42,570 nucleotides of DNA from K189A clade bacterium (GTDB lineage Bacteria > Pseudomonadota > Gammaproteobacteria > Pseudomonadales > Azotimanducaceae). The notes under the pieces were generated by a model, which ran no database searches, was not told the DNA's origin, and was given only the letters and a program-made list of their open reading frames with translations. Position numbers and translations under genes: made by a program. Positions 35,843-42,309 of this stretch are shown here, one piece after another; the first letter of the stretch is position 1; each line of letters starts with the position of its first letter. Location: positions 1 to 42,570 of the forward strand of contig JABBAY010000132.1 in the NCBI GenBank assembly GCA_018607725.1. Reading direction: 5' to 3'.

Positions 35843-36625
35843 ATGAAATTACACGACAAAATCGCCATCGTCACTGGCGCTGGCAGCGGTATCGGCCGCG
35901 CCATGGCGAAACGCTTTATCAAAGAAGGCGCTCGTCACGTCATTATCGCCGACCTGCATGCTGACAGCCTGACATCACTGGCTACTGAGATTGGCGCCAG
36001 AGCGATCAAGACCAATGTCGCCAACGAACAGGAAGTCATTCACTTGATCCGTACCGTGGAACAGGATTATGGCCAGATTGACCTGCTCTGTAACAACGCC
36101 GGTATCGGCGTCGGTGGTGGCCCAGAAACCGCCAACGAAGATTGGCAGAGAATCTGGGAGATCAACGTCATGGCGCATATCTACGCCACCCGTGCGGCAC
36201 TGCCGAACATGCTCGAACGGGGAGAAGGCTATATTTTAAATACCGCCTCGGCTGCAGGTCTGCTCACCCAGATCGGTTCTGCGCCTTATGCCGTGACGAA
36301 GCATGCGGCCGTGGCCTATGCCGAGTGGTTAGCAGTGACTTATGGAGATCGCGGCATCAAAGTCTCGGCGCTTTGCCCGCAGGCGGTCAGAACGGCCATG
36401 ACGGCGAATACTGAAGGCGGCGGCGTGGCCGGTGTGGACGGCATGATGGAGCCCGAAGAATTGTGCGATACGGTGATTGAAACCCTAGACGCCGAAACGT
36501 TCCTGGTCTTGCCGCACAAGGAAGTATTAACTTACATGCAGCGCAAAACAGCAGACTACGATCGTTGGATCAAGGGAATGATGCGTCTGCAGGCAGCCTA
36601 TGGTGTAGACTCCTTTCCTGATTGA
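35843..36625 (+). CDS. Short-chain dehydrogenase/reductase
   Basis: This 260-residue classical SDR has the nucleotide-binding IVTGAGSGIGRAMA (about residues 9-22), LLCNNAGIG near 84, the catalytic Ser in ILNTASAAGLL, and Tyr-x3-Lys in APYAVTKHAAVAYAEW. The Asp after beta-2 (IIADLHAD) suggests NAD(H) preference. The substrate is unknown. AGGATAAG precedes the ATG. It is 144 bp after the aminotransferase, and its stop codon is embedded in the -35 box of the metA promoter. Confidence 0.88.
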   Translation: MKLHDKIAIVTGAGSGIGRAMAKRFIKEGARHVIIADLHADSLTSLATEIGARAIKTNVANEQEVIHLIRTVEQDYGQIDLLCNNAGIGVGGGPETANEDWQRIWEINVMAHIYATRAALPNMLERGEGYILNTASAAGLLTQIGSAPYAVTKHAAVAYAEWLAVTYGDRGIKVSALCPQAVRTAMTANTEGGGVAGVDGMMEPEELCDTVIETLDAETFLVLPHKEVLTYMQRKTADYDRWIKGMMRLQAAYGVDSFPD

Positions 36626-36649
36626 TATCCCGCTTCAATGGCCTATAAT
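36622..36649 (+). promoter_or_regulatory. Strong sigma-70 promoter of metA
   Basis: TTGATA (36622-36627) and TATAAT (36644-36649) have a 16-bp spacer. The -35 box overlaps the stop codon of the upstream SDR. A transcription start near 36656 would give a leader of about 125 nt holding the riboswitch and attenuator. The -10 box is a perfect match and the -35 box matches 5 of 6 bases. Confidence 0.8.
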
Positions 36650-36672
36650 GGGCGTTGAGAAACCAACAATAC

Positions 36673-36723
36673 AGCGCCGATTTGAGTTCAGCTTGCGGGC
36701 GCTATATAAATACTGCTAAAGAG
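36673..36723 (+). promoter_or_regulatory. SAM-II-like riboswitch aptamer upstream of metA
   Basis: Stem P1 is AGCGCC (36673-36678) with GGCGCT (36698-36703), a perfect 6 bp. The conserved SAM-II loop element GATTT follows immediately (36679-36683). CTTGC (36692-36696) can pair with GCTAAAG (36715-36721), leaving the unpaired U that contacts SAM in the known structure. TAAA (36707-36710) lies in the expected linker. These elements occur in the right order and spacing for the H-type pseudoknot of SAM-II, a class known to control metA/metX. The call is by eye, from remembered consensus. Confidence 0.82.
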
Positions 36724-36727
36724 TATT

Positions 36728-36766
36728 AAACCTGCTTTAGCGCTAATGCTGAGCAGGTTTTTTTTT
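36728..36766 (+). terminator. Attenuator: intrinsic terminator in the metA leader
   Basis: AAACCTGCT (36728-36736) pairs with AGCAGGTTT (36752-36760), an inner AGC/GCT pair extends the stem, and nine T residues (36758-36766) follow. The ribosome site GAGGA (36767-36771) starts right after the T-tract and the metA ATG is at 36781, so this terminator must regulate metA rather than end an upstream gene. Its element CTTTAGC (36735-36741) is the exact complement of GCTAAAG in the aptamer. Confidence 0.88.
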
Positions 36767-36780
36767 GAGGACGAACCACC

Positions 36781-37731
36781 ATGCCATTGCGGATTCCAGA
36801 CAATTTACCCGCGTCTCAGGTACTCGAGCTAGAGAACATATTTTGTATTTCCGACGCCCAAGCCCAACATCAGGACATTCGGCCTCAGAAAATACTGTTG
36901 TTGAATCTGATGCCGAAGAAAATCGACACTGAGATACATCTGCTGCGCATGCTCTCGAACACGCCCTTGCAGGTGGAAGTCGACTTGATGCGAATCTCTG
37001 ACAAACCGTCAAAAAACACACCTGTGGCCCATATGGATGCGTTTTATAAAGATTTCAGCGCAATACGCAGCAACAAGTATGACGGCATGATCATTACCGG
37101 CGCGCCCCTGGGTCAAGTACCGTTTGAGGACGTTTATTTCTGGCAGGAGATGACTGAGATTATGGATTGGACGCTGACCAACGTCACGTCAGTCATGTAT
37201 CTTTGCTGGGGAGTACAGGCCGCCATGTACCACCTCTATGGCATCGACAAAGTCGTATTACCTAAGAAGATGTCCGGTGTTTACCCGCACCATCTTGTTA
37301 AACCTTTTTCGCCTATCGTCAGAGGCTTTGACGACACCTTTGACGCACCGCACTCGCGCTATGCAGAGGTGCCGATGAGTGCTATCCAGCAGATCCCCGA
37401 GCTCGAAATTATTGCCGCCTCTGAGATCGCCGGCGCTTACATCATTGCAAGTTCCGATGGCCGCCAGCTATTTGTCACCGGCCATTCCGAGTACGAACCA
37501 TTGTGTCTGAAAGATGAGTATGAGCGCGATCTGGCAGCCGGTCATCAGCCCGCGATACCAGAGCACTACTTTCCCCACGACGACCCGGCGCTGCCACCCA
37601 TCGTCAACTGGAAAAGCCACGGCAGCCTGCTGTTCTCCAACTGGCTCAACTATTATGTTTACCAACTAACTCCCTTCGATATGAATAACATCGGCGAGCA
37701 GCTCGGCGAGACCAAAATGACCCTGGTCTAA
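36781..37731 (+). CDS. metA: Homoserine O-succinyltransferase MetA
   Basis: MetA acylates homoserine, the first committed step of methionine synthesis. The 316-residue protein is full length and keeps E. coli numbering: catalytic Cys142 (CWGVQAAMYHLYG), His235 and Glu237 (TGHSEYEP). Residue 111 is Gly (ITGAPLGQV); in this family Gly111 goes with succinyl-CoA and Glu111 with acetyl-CoA, so a succinyltransferase is predicted. The C-terminal SHGSLLFSNWLNYYVYQLTP is typical. It has its own promoter and SAM-II-type leader and appears monocistronic. Confidence 0.95.
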   Translation: MPLRIPDNLPASQVLELENIFCISDAQAQHQDIRPQKILLLNLMPKKIDTEIHLLRMLSNTPLQVEVDLMRISDKPSKNTPVAHMDAFYKDFSAIRSNKYDGMIITGAPLGQVPFEDVYFWQEMTEIMDWTLTNVTSVMYLCWGVQAAMYHLYGIDKVVLPKKMSGVYPHHLVKPFSPIVRGFDDTFDAPHSRYAEVPMSAIQQIPELEIIAASEIAGAYIIASSDGRQLFVTGHSEYEPLCLKDEYERDLAAGHQPAIPEHYFPHDDPALPPIVNWKSHGSLLFSNWLNYYVYQLTPFDMNNIGEQLGETKMTLV

Positions 37732-38801: not shown

Positions 38802-38927
38802 ATGCAAGACCTGCACACAGCAACTGGGATACAGCGGCAAAATAAATTGTCCGACACCGATGCACGCTGCTGCGGGATTTTCACCGGGTTAGCCATCGGC
38901 CAACCATTACCCTGGTGCGCCCACTAA
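38802..38927 (+). CDS. Possible 41-residue peptide ORF coupled to the exporter
   Basis: ATG 38802 opens a 41-codon frame ending in TAA that overlaps the adaptor ATG by one base (TAATG). AAGAGG (38786-38791) lies 10 nt before the ATG. The peptide starts MQDLHTATGIQRQNKL and later has SDTDARCCGIFTG and a terminal PWCAH: three Cys in 41 residues. It lacks the double-glycine leader that C39 exporters cleave. It could be a precursor, a translation-coupling leader or chance; the frame is also open upstream to 38625. Confidence 0.3.
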   Translation: MQDLHTATGIQRQNKLSDTDARCCGIFTGLAIGQPLPWCAH

Positions 38928-40201
38928 TGCCTGACACTGCTTACCAGTCTACGAACACAGAACCACTGTTCACAGCCAAATCCTTACTTTTTCGCCAACA
39001 ACAGAATATCGGTCAGGCACGTTTGATTGGCCCACCTCACCTCACGACGATCGTTATTTTGCTGGCCATTATTTTAGTCACTGCGATGATATTTCTTACC
39101 CGCTTCGACTACGTACGTAAACAAAGCGTACCCGGCTTCCTTGAATACAGCGTCACGACCAAACGTCTGTACCCCGAACGTTCTGGCAAAATAGAGCGGC
39201 TCAACGTGCAGCCCGGAGATGTCGTTAGTGCCGGTGAGATATTGGCAGTTGTCAGCTCTGACTTACCCCAACAAGTTGAATATGGCAGGAACGCGATGGC
39301 TGACTTCGAACGGCTGATTGTTCACCAGCACCAAGCTCGAAAAGACTTTACCGCAGACAATAAGACTCTGATGAAGAAAATGCAGGCACAAATCGACGCA
39401 CTGACGACTGCCGGCACGCTGCAGCAAGAGATGATTAACATTCAGCTATTGAAGGAAGATCAAGCCGGGCAGATCCGCAAGGCATCGCTGGCACTGTTGC
39501 AAGCAGGCCAGATTTCACCATTAAACTTTAGCGAGCGTGAGGAACGTTGGCATTCTATCCGCCAAACCACTACCGAGTTAAGGTCGACGCTAGCAAATTT
39601 ACATGCGCAGAAGATCCAGTTGCAGATTACAGTGGCCAACAATGCTGTAACCCAGCGGGTCAGGCTGCTACCGATGAATGCCGAAATTGTCCGCCTGGAG
39701 CAGAGCCGCAACAATTACCAAAGGGAGATACGCCAGGAACTGATCGCCCCGCTCGATGGCCGTATCGCAACACTACTGCACGAACCCGGCGAACATGTCT
39801 CACCAGATATGCCGATTCTCACCCTCGAGCCCAATACTGGCATCCTTCAGGCCAAGCTCATGATTGCGAGCCACGCTATCGGGTTTATACGGCCCGGGCA
39901 GGCAGTCAACTTGCTGTATGACGCCTTTCCACATCAACAATTCGGTAGTTATCCAGGACAGGTTGTCGATGTCTCGCGCCATCCGTTGACCGCACTCGAC
40001 CAAACCAGTTTGCCACGGGGCGCTCCACCCGTGTACCTGGCAACCATTGCTCTGAATGAGCATCACATCACAGCCTACGGCAAGGCCATACGCCTGCGCG
40101 AAGGCATGACACTTAAGGCCGATATTCTGCTTGAATCTCGCAGCTTGATGGCTTGGCTATTCGAGCCCCTGTTTATTATGCGCGGTCGAGGTAGTTCCTG
40201 A
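38927..40201 (+). CDS. HlyD-family membrane fusion protein of a peptide exporter
   Basis: This 424-residue periplasmic adaptor is of the CvaA/HlyD type. It has a cytoplasmic N-terminus, one membrane span (about 37-58; TTIVILLAIILVTAMIF), a lipoyl half-motif (RSGKIERLNVQPGDVVSAGEILAVV), a long coiled-coil hairpin (about 115-265), the second lipoyl half (LIAPLDGRIATLLHEPGEHV) and a beta-barrel (FIRPGQAVNLLYDAFPHQQFG). ATG 38927 is preferred; an in-frame GTG at 38915 would add four residues. Its stop overlaps the ABC transporter start (TGATG). It should bridge the exporter to a TolC-like channel, which is not in view. Confidence 0.9.
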   Translation: MPDTAYQSTNTEPLFTAKSLLFRQQQNIGQARLIGPPHLTTIVILLAIILVTAMIFLTRFDYVRKQSVPGFLEYSVTTKRLYPERSGKIERLNVQPGDVVSAGEILAVVSSDLPQQVEYGRNAMADFERLIVHQHQARKDFTADNKTLMKKMQAQIDALTTAGTLQQEMINIQLLKEDQAGQIRKASLALLQAGQISPLNFSEREERWHSIRQTTTELRSTLANLHAQKIQLQITVANNAVTQRVRLLPMNAEIVRLEQSRNNYQREIRQELIAPLDGRIATLLHEPGEHVSPDMPILTLEPNTGILQAKLMIASHAIGFIRPGQAVNLLYDAFPHQQFGSYPGQVVDVSRHPLTALDQTSLPRGAPPVYLATIALNEHHITAYGKAIRLREGMTLKADILLESRSLMAWLFEPLFIMRGRGSS

Positions 40202-42309
40202 TGGAATTGCTTCGGACGTTACATCTCGGCGGTCGTCGACAGTTACCGATTGTGCTTCAAGCAGAATACTCAGAATGCGGCCTTGCCTGTCTCGCGATGG
40301 TCGCCGCCTACCATGGCCAGCAAGAAAGTTTATTAAGTTTGCGCGAACGCTTTCAAACGAGCCAGCAAGGGGTCAACTTGCATCACTTAATGATGATGGC
40401 CAGGCGTTTCAGCCTGACTAGCCGCGCCCTGCGTTGCGAGATCGACGAAATCTGTAAGCTTGAGCTACCGGTCATTATTCACTGGGACTTCAACCACTTT
40501 GTGGTCGTCGCCCAAGCCAGTCGTTCCAGTGTCACGATTCACGACCCAGCACTGGGACAGCGAAAGTATAGCCTGAGTGCTGCTGCCCGCCACTTTACCG
40601 GTATTGCCCTGGAGCTGACTCCCGACTCGCAATTTAAAGCCACCGACAGCCCCACGAAGCTATCCTTACGGCAGTTCCTGGGTAACCTGCCGGGGATGGT
40701 GCCGATACTCGCACAGATTCTATTTCTATCCGTGATCTTGCAATTTGTCGCCCTGGCCAGCCCGTTTTACATGCAACTCGTTGTCGACGAAGTATTGGTC
40801 AAACAGGATGTAGACCTGTTGATATTACTAGCCATGGGATTTTTGGCTATCACGTTAATCTCGTTGATTACCCAAGCAATTCGCGGCTGGACTAGTATAT
40901 ACCTAACGAATCAACTCTCCCTTAAGTTTGGTAGCCGCTTGTTTCACCGACTGCTGAGTCTCAAAGGCGACTATTTTATGAAACGCCATTTAGGTGATAT
41001 CGTTTCACGCTTCGCTTCTCTGCGCCCGGTACAGGAATTTCTCACCAGTAGCGCCATCACGGTTCTATTAGATAGTGTCATGGCCTTAAGCACACTCACG
41101 ATGATTCTAATCTACTCGCCGTTGTTAGCGGGTGTCGTGGTGCTGGCTCTACTCTTATATCTGGTGAGTCAGATGGCATTCTACTTACCCACAAGGAATA
41201 GATCTCACGAACAGATCACCGCCAACGCCAAGCTCGATTCGAATTTCATGGAATCCATTCGATCCATCAGCGCCATTAAACGCTTTGGCGCTGAACAACA
41301 GCGCGAGAGTGAATGGCAAAACCGCTTCAATGAAGTGATCAATGCCAACATTCGGCTTAGCTGGCTGTCCTTAGCACGAGACATTCTGAATAATGGTATC
41401 TCTGGTATCTCGCAGATACTGGTCATATTTTTAGGTGCCAAGCAGGTTCTCAGTGGTCAAATGAGTATCGGTATGCTGTACGCGTTTATGGCTTATCGCA
41501 GCCATCTAGTCAGCGCTGCGACCTCCCTGGTCAATGAGTTGATTCGTTTTTTAATGCTATCACTTCACCTTGAGCGCTTGAGCGATATTCAATTAGCCGC
41601 AGCCGACGCACCACCATCGATGCAAGCAGCACCTGCTATCAGCGGACGAATACGACTCGACGGTGTGGGCTTTCGTCATACCGATGATCAACCTTGGATA
41701 CTGCAACATATCAAGCTGGACATTCAACCCGCAGACCGACTCTGTATTCTCGGACCCTCAGGTTGCGGCAAAACGACCTTGCTGAATGTCATGCAAAATT
41801 TATTGCCTGCCAGTCACGGAGAAATTTACATAGATGAACTTCCCCTGAGCGGCGCCGGTAGTAGCGCACTAAGAACCCACAGCGCGAGCGTGATGCAAGG
41901 CGAGGCGCTGCTATCTGGCAGCATTTTATCAAATATCGCGTTTAACGATCCTGAGTTCGACTATGAACGCGTCGAGTCTGCGGCCAGGCTCGCGATGATT
42001 CACGACGATATTGTGGCGATGGCCATGGGCTACGAGAGCCTGATTGGCGATATGGGCACGATTTTGTCTGCGGGGCAGCAGAGTCGAGTTCTCATCGCTC
42101 GAGCCTTATATCGTCGTCCCAAGATCTTGTTTCTTGACGAGTGCACAGCGCATTTGGACGAAGCGACAGAAGCCCAGGTCATGCAGGGCATTATCGACCT
42201 GAAAATCACCTGTATCTTTGTGACCCACAATACTCGACTCACTCATTACGCCACTGCAGTACTGCATTTAACTCCAAGCGGTTATCCACTGGTTTCCGGC
42301 AATCCGTAA
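40201..42309 (+). CDS. Peptidase-C39 ABC exporter (bacteriocin/microcin type)
   Basis: This 702-residue bifunctional exporter of the CvaB/LagD type removes double-glycine leader peptides and pumps out the product. The N-terminal C39 protease (1 to about 140) has an intact triad: Cys26 in QAEYSECGLACLAM (oxyanion Gln20), His99 in HWDFNHFVVVA and Asp115 in IHDPALG. A six-helix membrane domain spans about 165-450. The nucleotide-binding domain has Walker A GPSGCGKTT (from 518), signature LSAGQQSR (from 622), Walker B ILFLDE (Glu647) and H-loop His676. The post-Walker-B stretch reads CTAHLD rather than ATSALD. Confidence 0.93.
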   Translation: MELLRTLHLGGRRQLPIVLQAEYSECGLACLAMVAAYHGQQESLLSLRERFQTSQQGVNLHHLMMMARRFSLTSRALRCEIDEICKLELPVIIHWDFNHFVVVAQASRSSVTIHDPALGQRKYSLSAAARHFTGIALELTPDSQFKATDSPTKLSLRQFLGNLPGMVPILAQILFLSVILQFVALASPFYMQLVVDEVLVKQDVDLLILLAMGFLAITLISLITQAIRGWTSIYLTNQLSLKFGSRLFHRLLSLKGDYFMKRHLGDIVSRFASLRPVQEFLTSSAITVLLDSVMALSTLTMILIYSPLLAGVVVLALLLYLVSQMAFYLPTRNRSHEQITANAKLDSNFMESIRSISAIKRFGAEQQRESEWQNRFNEVINANIRLSWLSLARDILNNGISGISQILVIFLGAKQVLSGQMSIGMLYAFMAYRSHLVSAATSLVNELIRFLMLSLHLERLSDIQLAAADAPPSMQAAPAISGRIRLDGVGFRHTDDQPWILQHIKLDIQPADRLCILGPSGCGKTTLLNVMQNLLPASHGEIYIDELPLSGAGSSALRTHSASVMQGEALLSGSILSNIAFNDPEFDYERVESAARLAMIHDDIVAMAMGYESLIGDMGTILSAGQQSRVLIARALYRRPKILFLDECTAHLDEATEAQVMQGIIDLKITCIFVTHNTRLTHYATAVLHLTPSGYPLVSGNP

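Follow-up and report, generated by a model that had tools for sequence, protein, structure and literature searches.

A SAM-II-class leader upstream of gammaproteobacterial metA and a proposed GCUAAAG/CUUUAGC antiterminator

The metA gene of a gammaproteobacterial contig is preceded by a leader that quite probably acts as a SAM-II-class riboswitch and turns the gene off by transcription attenuation, the putative antiterminator being formed by GCUAAAG of the aptamer and CUUUAGC of the terminator arm. This reading is based on SAM-II homology, a terminator, a conserved and covarying complement and the methionine-gene contexts of the leaders, from which we infer that the metA leader binds SAM, in which direction it switches and that its control is kinetic. 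The riboswitch class itself is an ordinary one and its host range was already known. What the analysis adds to the original prediction is the coupling of the terminator to the aptamer and the commonness of the subtype.

The metA leader and its aptamer

The features discussed below lie in the window, i.e., the whole stretch of 42,570 nucleotides that was analysed, except for the last one, which belongs to the same genome.

36622-36649, plus strand: promoter-like site TTGATA-16-TATAAT, sigma-70-like (consensus scan, 11/12)
36673-36678, plus strand: 5' strand of aptamer helix P1, AGCGCC (sequence; P1 covariation in 54 leaders)
36679-36683, plus strand: conserved loop GATTT (RF00521 alignment), invariant in 54 aligned leaders, which is partly built in by a motif search requiring G[AG]TTT
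36689-36696, plus strand: CAGCTTGC, presumed 5' strand of the P2 pseudoknot core, after the known SAM-II fold
36692-36696, plus strand: CTTGC (sequence)
36698-36703, plus strand: 3' strand of P1, GGCGCT (sequence; P1 covariation in 54 leaders)
36715-36723, plus strand: GCTAAAGAG, 3' strand of P2, by analogy the region that binds SAM; also the proposed strand of the antiterminator
36730-36758, plus strand: intrinsic terminator hairpin (fold -14.9 kcal/mol, z -3.8)
36735-36741, plus strand: CTTTAGC, within the 5' arm of the terminator, proposed to pair with the antiterminator strand
36758-36766, plus strand: nine-T tract of the terminator (sequence)
36767-36771, plus strand: GAGGA, likely ribosome-binding site, 3' of the terminator and outside the aptamer (sequence)
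36781-37731, plus strand: metA, homoserine O-acyltransferase, 316 aa (ATG at 36781; profile scores)
L002 (G000:C243), 1509-1562 and 1683-2930: second SAM-II leader and metZ-like gene

The elements named in the original prediction (P1, GATTT and CTTGC among them) were all found in the order and at the places given there. The predicted terminator was found as well, with a nine-T tract that reaches the ribosome site of metA, GAGGA following directly on its 3' side, and none of 200 shuffles was as stable as its hairpin. The promoter-like site is one of three in the scanned region, both strands included, where 1.5 are expected. The ORF that begins at 36781 scores above the cut-off of Pfam PF04204 and below those of TIGR01001 (466.4 bits, cut-off 495) and NF047918 (439.7 bits, cut-off 460.5), and judged by these profiles it is MetA. 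A small predicted hairpin, AAUACU/AGUAUU, surrounds GCUAAAG in the window. Further downstream, at 38915-42309, genes for an HlyD-like adaptor and a peptidase-type ABC exporter score below NCBIfam cut-offs and are probably related to type I secretion or bacteriocin export.

The proposal that the aptamer is of SAM-II type held when the Rfam SAM-II model, RF00521, was run on the leader. The model matches 36664-36740 over its full length (model positions 1-79) at E = 1.4e-6; the score, 34.6 bits, is 1.4 bits below the gathering score of 36 bits, which is the search threshold of the curators and not a biochemical definition. Since the score falls under that threshold, a default Rfam scan of the window returns nothing. 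The SAM-II long loop family (RF01726) has a similar core, but its model gives the window only 20.9 bits (cut-off 44, E = 0.06).

When 54 related leaders were aligned, P1 showed compensatory change at four of six pairs, which none of 500 shuffles equalled, and 96.9% of its cells are paired; further pair types are not in excess in P1 (8 vs. 7.2 in shuffles, 179/500). GATTTG, TTGC and GCTAAA are invariant in these 54 leaders, which had been picked by motif for most of those letters, and in the same motif-picked set the positions of CAGCTTGC are mostly invariant or conserved to at least 90%. The GCTAAA invariant in this set lies within GCTAAAGAG, the strand complementary to 36735-36741. The core strands of P2 are too conserved to covary. 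The distal extension of P2 is unsupported in the subtype, with a Watson-Crick helix of at least four pairs in 11% of 88 leaders and in 14% after permutation. Among 31 alphaproteobacterial leaders such a distal helix is found in 68%, against 58% after permutation, a test that separates observed from permuted leaders poorly, probably because the leaders are alike.

Taken by its sequence, the leader is most likely a SAM-II-class aptamer and likely senses SAM. It has P1 and the GATTT, CTTGC and GCTAAA core in common with the SAM-II of RF00521 (Corbino 2005), and both are found with methionine genes and with a terminator 3' of the aptamer. The window subtype differs from RF00521 SAM-II in that its P1 is of GCGCC type and not of CGTGG type, the distal P2 lacks support, the proposed antiterminator is GCTAAAG itself and many of its matches fall under the RF00521 cut-off.

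Pairing of the aptamer core with the terminator arm

The 5' arm of the terminator contains CUUUAGC, the exact complement of GCUAAAG, the 3' strand of the aptamer core. The generality of this pairing was assessed in a family set of 103 loci (101 from the family of the window and two from other families of its order), two of which lack the motif, leaving 101 leaders (99 + 2). A terminator is present in 86 of the 101 and was not detected in 15; removal of duplicates leaves 98 leaders, 83 of them with a terminator. The comparison included 30 loci from elsewhere in the class, one without the motif, and 39 alphaproteobacterial loci, the class-sample loci of both groups being the best-scoring RF00521 matches and not a random draw. 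Four of the alphaproteobacterial loci lack the motif and four were set aside, so that 31 leaders remain, 27 of them with a terminator. Those set aside after inspection, being unlike the rest, are L151, L158, L162 (G257, labelled Alphaproteobacteria) and L159 (G250, labelled Proteobacteria); none of the four has the full complement described below, and they are omitted from the helix profile.

A 7/7 complement of GCTAAAx, by Watson-Crick or G-U pairs, was sought between the aptamer and the T tract, with the expectation taken from shuffled platforms. It is present in 61 of the 83 non-identical terminator-bearing leaders of the family set, where 4.6 are expected, and in 17 of 23 leaders elsewhere in the class (2.1 expected). 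The full complement is missing from the other 22 leaders of the family set, and none of the 27 terminator-bearing leaders of Alphaproteobacteria contains it (0.2 expected). A helix profile, i.e., the longest helix between the 3' part of the aptamer and the terminator arm, shows that all seven positions of GCTAAAx tend to fall within the predicted antiterminator helix in the family set (77-92% of leaders, depending on the position) and in the class (68-86%), but seldom in the alphaproteobacterial leaders (4-19%). The six positions that follow GCTAAAx are in the helix in 67-89% of alphaproteobacterial leaders and in 1-25% of family-set leaders. The profiles thus suggest that the antiterminator strand is taken from a different part of the aptamer in each of the two groups.

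An antiterminator made of the distal P2 strand was considered for the family set and rejected, since the corresponding 7-mer test gave 3 of 83 leaders with 3.6 expected. The same test is negative in the alphaproteobacterial leaders (3 of 27, 2.8 expected), for which the use of the distal strand is indicated by the helix profile and not by the 7-mer count.

Covariation was examined in 88 leaders of the family set and the class, by a permutation test that ignores relatedness. The base before GCTAAAG is paired in 48 of the 88 leaders (31.5 +/- 3.9 permuted, six pair types) and the second base after GCTAAA in 31 (18.1 +/- 2.6 permuted), values reached in 0 of 2000 permutations in either case. Positions of the inner core are almost constant and give little or no covariation signal, and there is no excess at positions -8 to -10, where 33, 34 and 48 of the 88 leaders are paired vs. 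34.2, 32.9 and 49.6 permuted. One genus, placed in a different family of the order, has GCTAAACAG as its core and CTGTTTAGC as the partner in all six leaders read (L260-L265), which precede metK and differ among themselves in their terminator 3' arms; this compensated change may be a single event. By sequence alone, then, the terminator arm contains a complement that is conserved and covaries, which points to a mutually exclusive antiterminator. The terminator and this conserved complement agree with the transcription-attenuator platform that had been predicted, and in the gammaproteobacterial subtype it appears to be the sensing strand of the aptamer that keeps the terminator from forming.

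Folding energetics and the proposed switch

Folding calculations indicate that the antiterminator of the window has a pairing probability of 0.98-0.99 once CUUUAGC has emerged and before the terminator 3' arm is made, and that it loses to the terminator after about 15 more bases have been transcribed. Among 94 leaders with at least six of the seven pairs, the pairing probability exceeds 0.5 at the emergence of CUUUAGC in 89. The energies of the final states, calculated as secondary structure free of pseudoknot and ligand, are -17.1 kcal/mol for the terminator and -9.9 kcal/mol for the antiterminator in the window, i.e., the terminator is 7 kcal/mol more stable. The averages over the 94 leaders are -15.7 kcal/mol for the terminator and -14.7 kcal/mol for the antiterminator, which is the lower of the two in 39. 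Blocking of the core strand in the folding, which mimics the presumed effect of SAM, lets the terminator form. Given the more stable terminator state in the window, switching would have to be kinetic, or else metA would be mostly off; the modelled switch leans toward termination and would need to rely on timing. The metZ-like copy (L002) has a much stronger predicted antiterminator than the metA copy, and there it stays ahead as far as it was followed.

The following course of events is proposed. Transcription would start near 36656, as judged from the promoter-like site, and the aptamer would be made first. At low SAM, GCUAAAG (36715-36721) would pair with CUUUAGC (36735-36741) as soon as the latter emerges, the terminator 5' arm would be occupied and metA would be read. 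With SAM present, GCUAAAG would be held in the P2 pseudoknot, leaving CUUUAGC free to pair with the terminator 3' arm, and transcription would stop at the nine-T tract. The ligand-binding strand would in this way be the antiterminator strand of the gammaproteobacterial subtype, a role that would be taken by the distal end of P2 in Alphaproteobacteria.

It might be argued that the aptamer binds SAM while the terminator is constitutive and unswitched, most transcripts ending there as a small RNA. The thermodynamic dominance of the window terminator fits such an arrangement, and so does metA of S. meliloti, for which the available text describes a terminator 3' of SAM-II with no predicted riboswitch-driven antiterminator (PMC9373788). 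A constitutive terminator, however, needs neither the complement to GCTAAAG that most leaders carry, far above expectation, nor covarying flanks, and we consider this explanation unlikely.

The GCUAAAG/CUUUAGC coupling of terminator arm and aptamer core strand looks new. No description of it was found in the literature covered on SAM-II distribution and expression platforms, which consisted mainly of open papers, in part as excerpts.

Abundance in the class

The class, as delimited by genome taxonomy, includes the former Betaproteobacteria. At E 0.001, RF00521 matches 107 of 321 class genomes, only 26 of them over its cut-off. A model built from 54 leaders of the subtype, R1, matches at the same E-value 164 of the 321 genomes and 123 of 243 genera; in the order of the window it matches 45 of 283 genomes and 24 of 119 genera, among them 11 genomes of the genus of L260-L265 (family f27, genus g63). 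The R1 alignment takes 54 of 63 chosen leaders, 16 of which belong to the class sample, while several others belong to order-sample genomes against which R1 was later run. The best R1 match has E of 1e-10 or less in 142 of the 164 class genomes and a weaker one in 22, and in 8 of the 45 order genomes it is weaker than 1e-5; these E-values are rough and some of the weak matches may be false.

Twenty places were picked by hand from the listed strong R1 matches, none of them an RF00521 match (one genome, G420, has an RF00521 match elsewhere). Eighteen precede methionine or SAM genes, i.e., a member of the Cys/Met PLP family in 11, metE in three, and metK, metN, metX and a homocysteine-methyltransferase-like gene in one each, several of these genes scoring under NCBIfam cut-offs as partial or distant members. 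An ORF search gave no gene at the remaining two places.

SAM-II elements also occur in tandem or in clusters. One genome (G617) has five RF00521 matches, and in its leader L202 a terminator separates two aptamer cores; three others (G257, G292 and G365) have two RF00521 matches each, 43-83 bases apart.

Host, distribution in the family and comparison with Alphaproteobacteria

The MetA of the window shares 99% identity with its counterpart in Gammaproteobacteria bacterium UBA4475, which is in the genus of the window, followed by genomes labelled Pseudomonadales (81, 74, 71, and 70%) or Gammaproteobacteria and by OM182 bacterium MED-G24 (68%), which is in its family. Each placement comes from a pair of genome records with identical match places, G242 and G004 for UBA4475 and G245 and G032 for MED-G24. 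Judged by these sequences the host is gammaproteobacterial, as originally proposed. The same genome carries a second SAM-II copy (L002, listed above) before a metZ-like gene of the cystathionine-gamma-synthase family.

RF00521 matches 64 of 206 genomes of the family, 39 of them over the cut-off, and MetA (PF04204) is present in 57. A SAM-II match is found in 56 of the 57 genomes with MetA vs. 8 of the 149 without it. When 40 named MetA loci were checked by motif search only, the SAM-II core motif was found upstream of all 13 that are at least 67% identical and of none of the 27 more distant ones, some of which have less than 450 bases upstream. The switch thus seems to track one MetA lineage. 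The 101 readable leaders precede metA (55), metZ homologues (40) or something else or an unread gene (6), and the pair taken from outside the family stand before metK (L020) and metN (L027). Exclusion of MetJ was tried and proved uninformative: none of 97 relatives has MetJ (the E. coli control was positive), and the 71 of them without a SAM-II match lack it as well. In one genus (g32), two SAM-II-like matches with no terminator detected, L021 and L138, may represent decayed elements or act on another target; Pfam gave no match for the ORF that follows L021.

The original prediction saw a taxonomic and mechanistic surprise in this leader, which did not survive comparison with the literature. 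SAM-II in Gammaproteobacteria and SAM-II with terminators have, by the available text of these papers, been known since 2005-2007: other proteobacterial lineages and many terminators were reported in Corbino 2005, and sporadic cases, gammaproteobacterial ones included, were thought to be possible transfers (Barrick and Breaker 2007). The SAM-II switch of S. meliloti metZ is, as excerpted, predicted to terminate transcription, so that it resembles the window in its SAM-dependent leader terminator, but it is alphaproteobacterial (PMC9373788). In the portion available of another survey, SAM_alpha is placed in two alphaproteobacterial lineages and apparently in no gammaproteobacteria (Leyn 2014; PMC4239095).

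Recent horizontal spread from Alphaproteobacteria, which had also been suggested, would mean that switch and expression platform were acquired as one. SAM-II is frequent among the would-be donors (53 of 115 sampled genomes of an alphaproteobacterial class), but a recent transfer is unsupported, because the platform differs and the switch tracks one MetA lineage. P1, the extent of P2 and the antiterminator strand are not those of the alphaproteobacterial type, MetA identity is 67-99% within the clade and 40-45% between the clade and alphaproteobacterial loci, and R1 matches extend over about half of the genomes sampled from the class of the window (164/321). Such an acquisition is very improbable.

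Translational action, with the ribosome site hidden in P2, is the mechanism described for metX SAM-II in the available part of PMC10907184, and one family member (L031, G029:C56), with no terminator detected, AGAGGAG at the aptamer end and ATG 14 bases after GCTAAA, is probably a translational version. In the window, however, GAGGA (36767-36771) follows the terminator and lies outside the aptamer, which gives translational control of this metA an even smaller chance than a recent transfer. Least credible of all is drift of the aptamer to another ligand, which would suit the unsupported distal P2 and the low RF00521 score, but not the presence of the GATTTG, CTTGC and GCTAAA core or the contexts of methionine and SAM genes.

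Orphan elements and implications

Two elements described earlier may be the same attenuating SAM-II leader as that of metA. The Rfam family RF02424 (Bp2_287) is classed as an sRNA of Burkholderia and modelled on the opposite strand, and its matches overlap the SAM-II subtype of the window; according to the excerpted source, Bp2_287 lies upstream of methionine genes in most genomes (PMC3521395). The model matches the minus strand of the window at 36652-36763 with 30.7 bits, below its cut-off of 70. In the class it has 40 places in 39 of the 321 genomes, with no genome over the cut-off; 29 of the 40 overlap an RF00521 match on the opposite strand, three being not comparable by position. Eight of the remaining 11 overlap an opposite-strand R1 match, and the SAM-II core was seen on the opposite strand in all five of those 11 that were inspected. 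Apparently, RF02424 is the leader of the SAM-II subtype modelled on the wrong strand. No link between RF02424 and SAM-II was found in the literature covered, mainly open papers and in part excerpts.

The second element is the betaproteobacterial metXZ element, for which the available text of Leyn 2014 (PMC4239095) gives a pseudoknot formed by regions 1-4 and 2-6, a terminator after it, a position upstream of metX or metZ and a speculated antiterminator. It was reported as new, with no link to SAM-II in that text. We infer from its description, and not from its sequence, that it may be the same switch as the window subtype.

On balance we lean toward the broader view that Gammaproteobacteria, taken as broadly as genome taxonomy takes them, possess a distinct SAM-II subclass as a common SAM sensor for met genes, in which the distal P2 was lost and the SAM-binding strand doubles as antiterminator, the metXZ element and RF02424 being the same switch. 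The subtype is apparently a real variant of the expression platform and much commoner than default annotation shows. Since RF00521 at its cut-off reports 26 of the 321 class genomes and R1 reports 164, the regulation of methionine genes in the class looks under-annotated. The SAM-II literature, as far as the available texts go, treats transcription termination largely as a prediction. The GCUAAAG/CUUUAGC pairing offers a simple and testable account of how a compact SAM-II aptamer could drive it. If the account is true, ligand and antiterminator would be in direct competition for one set of seven bases. An identity would be given to the orphan metXZ element, and a correction to the Rfam family RF02424.
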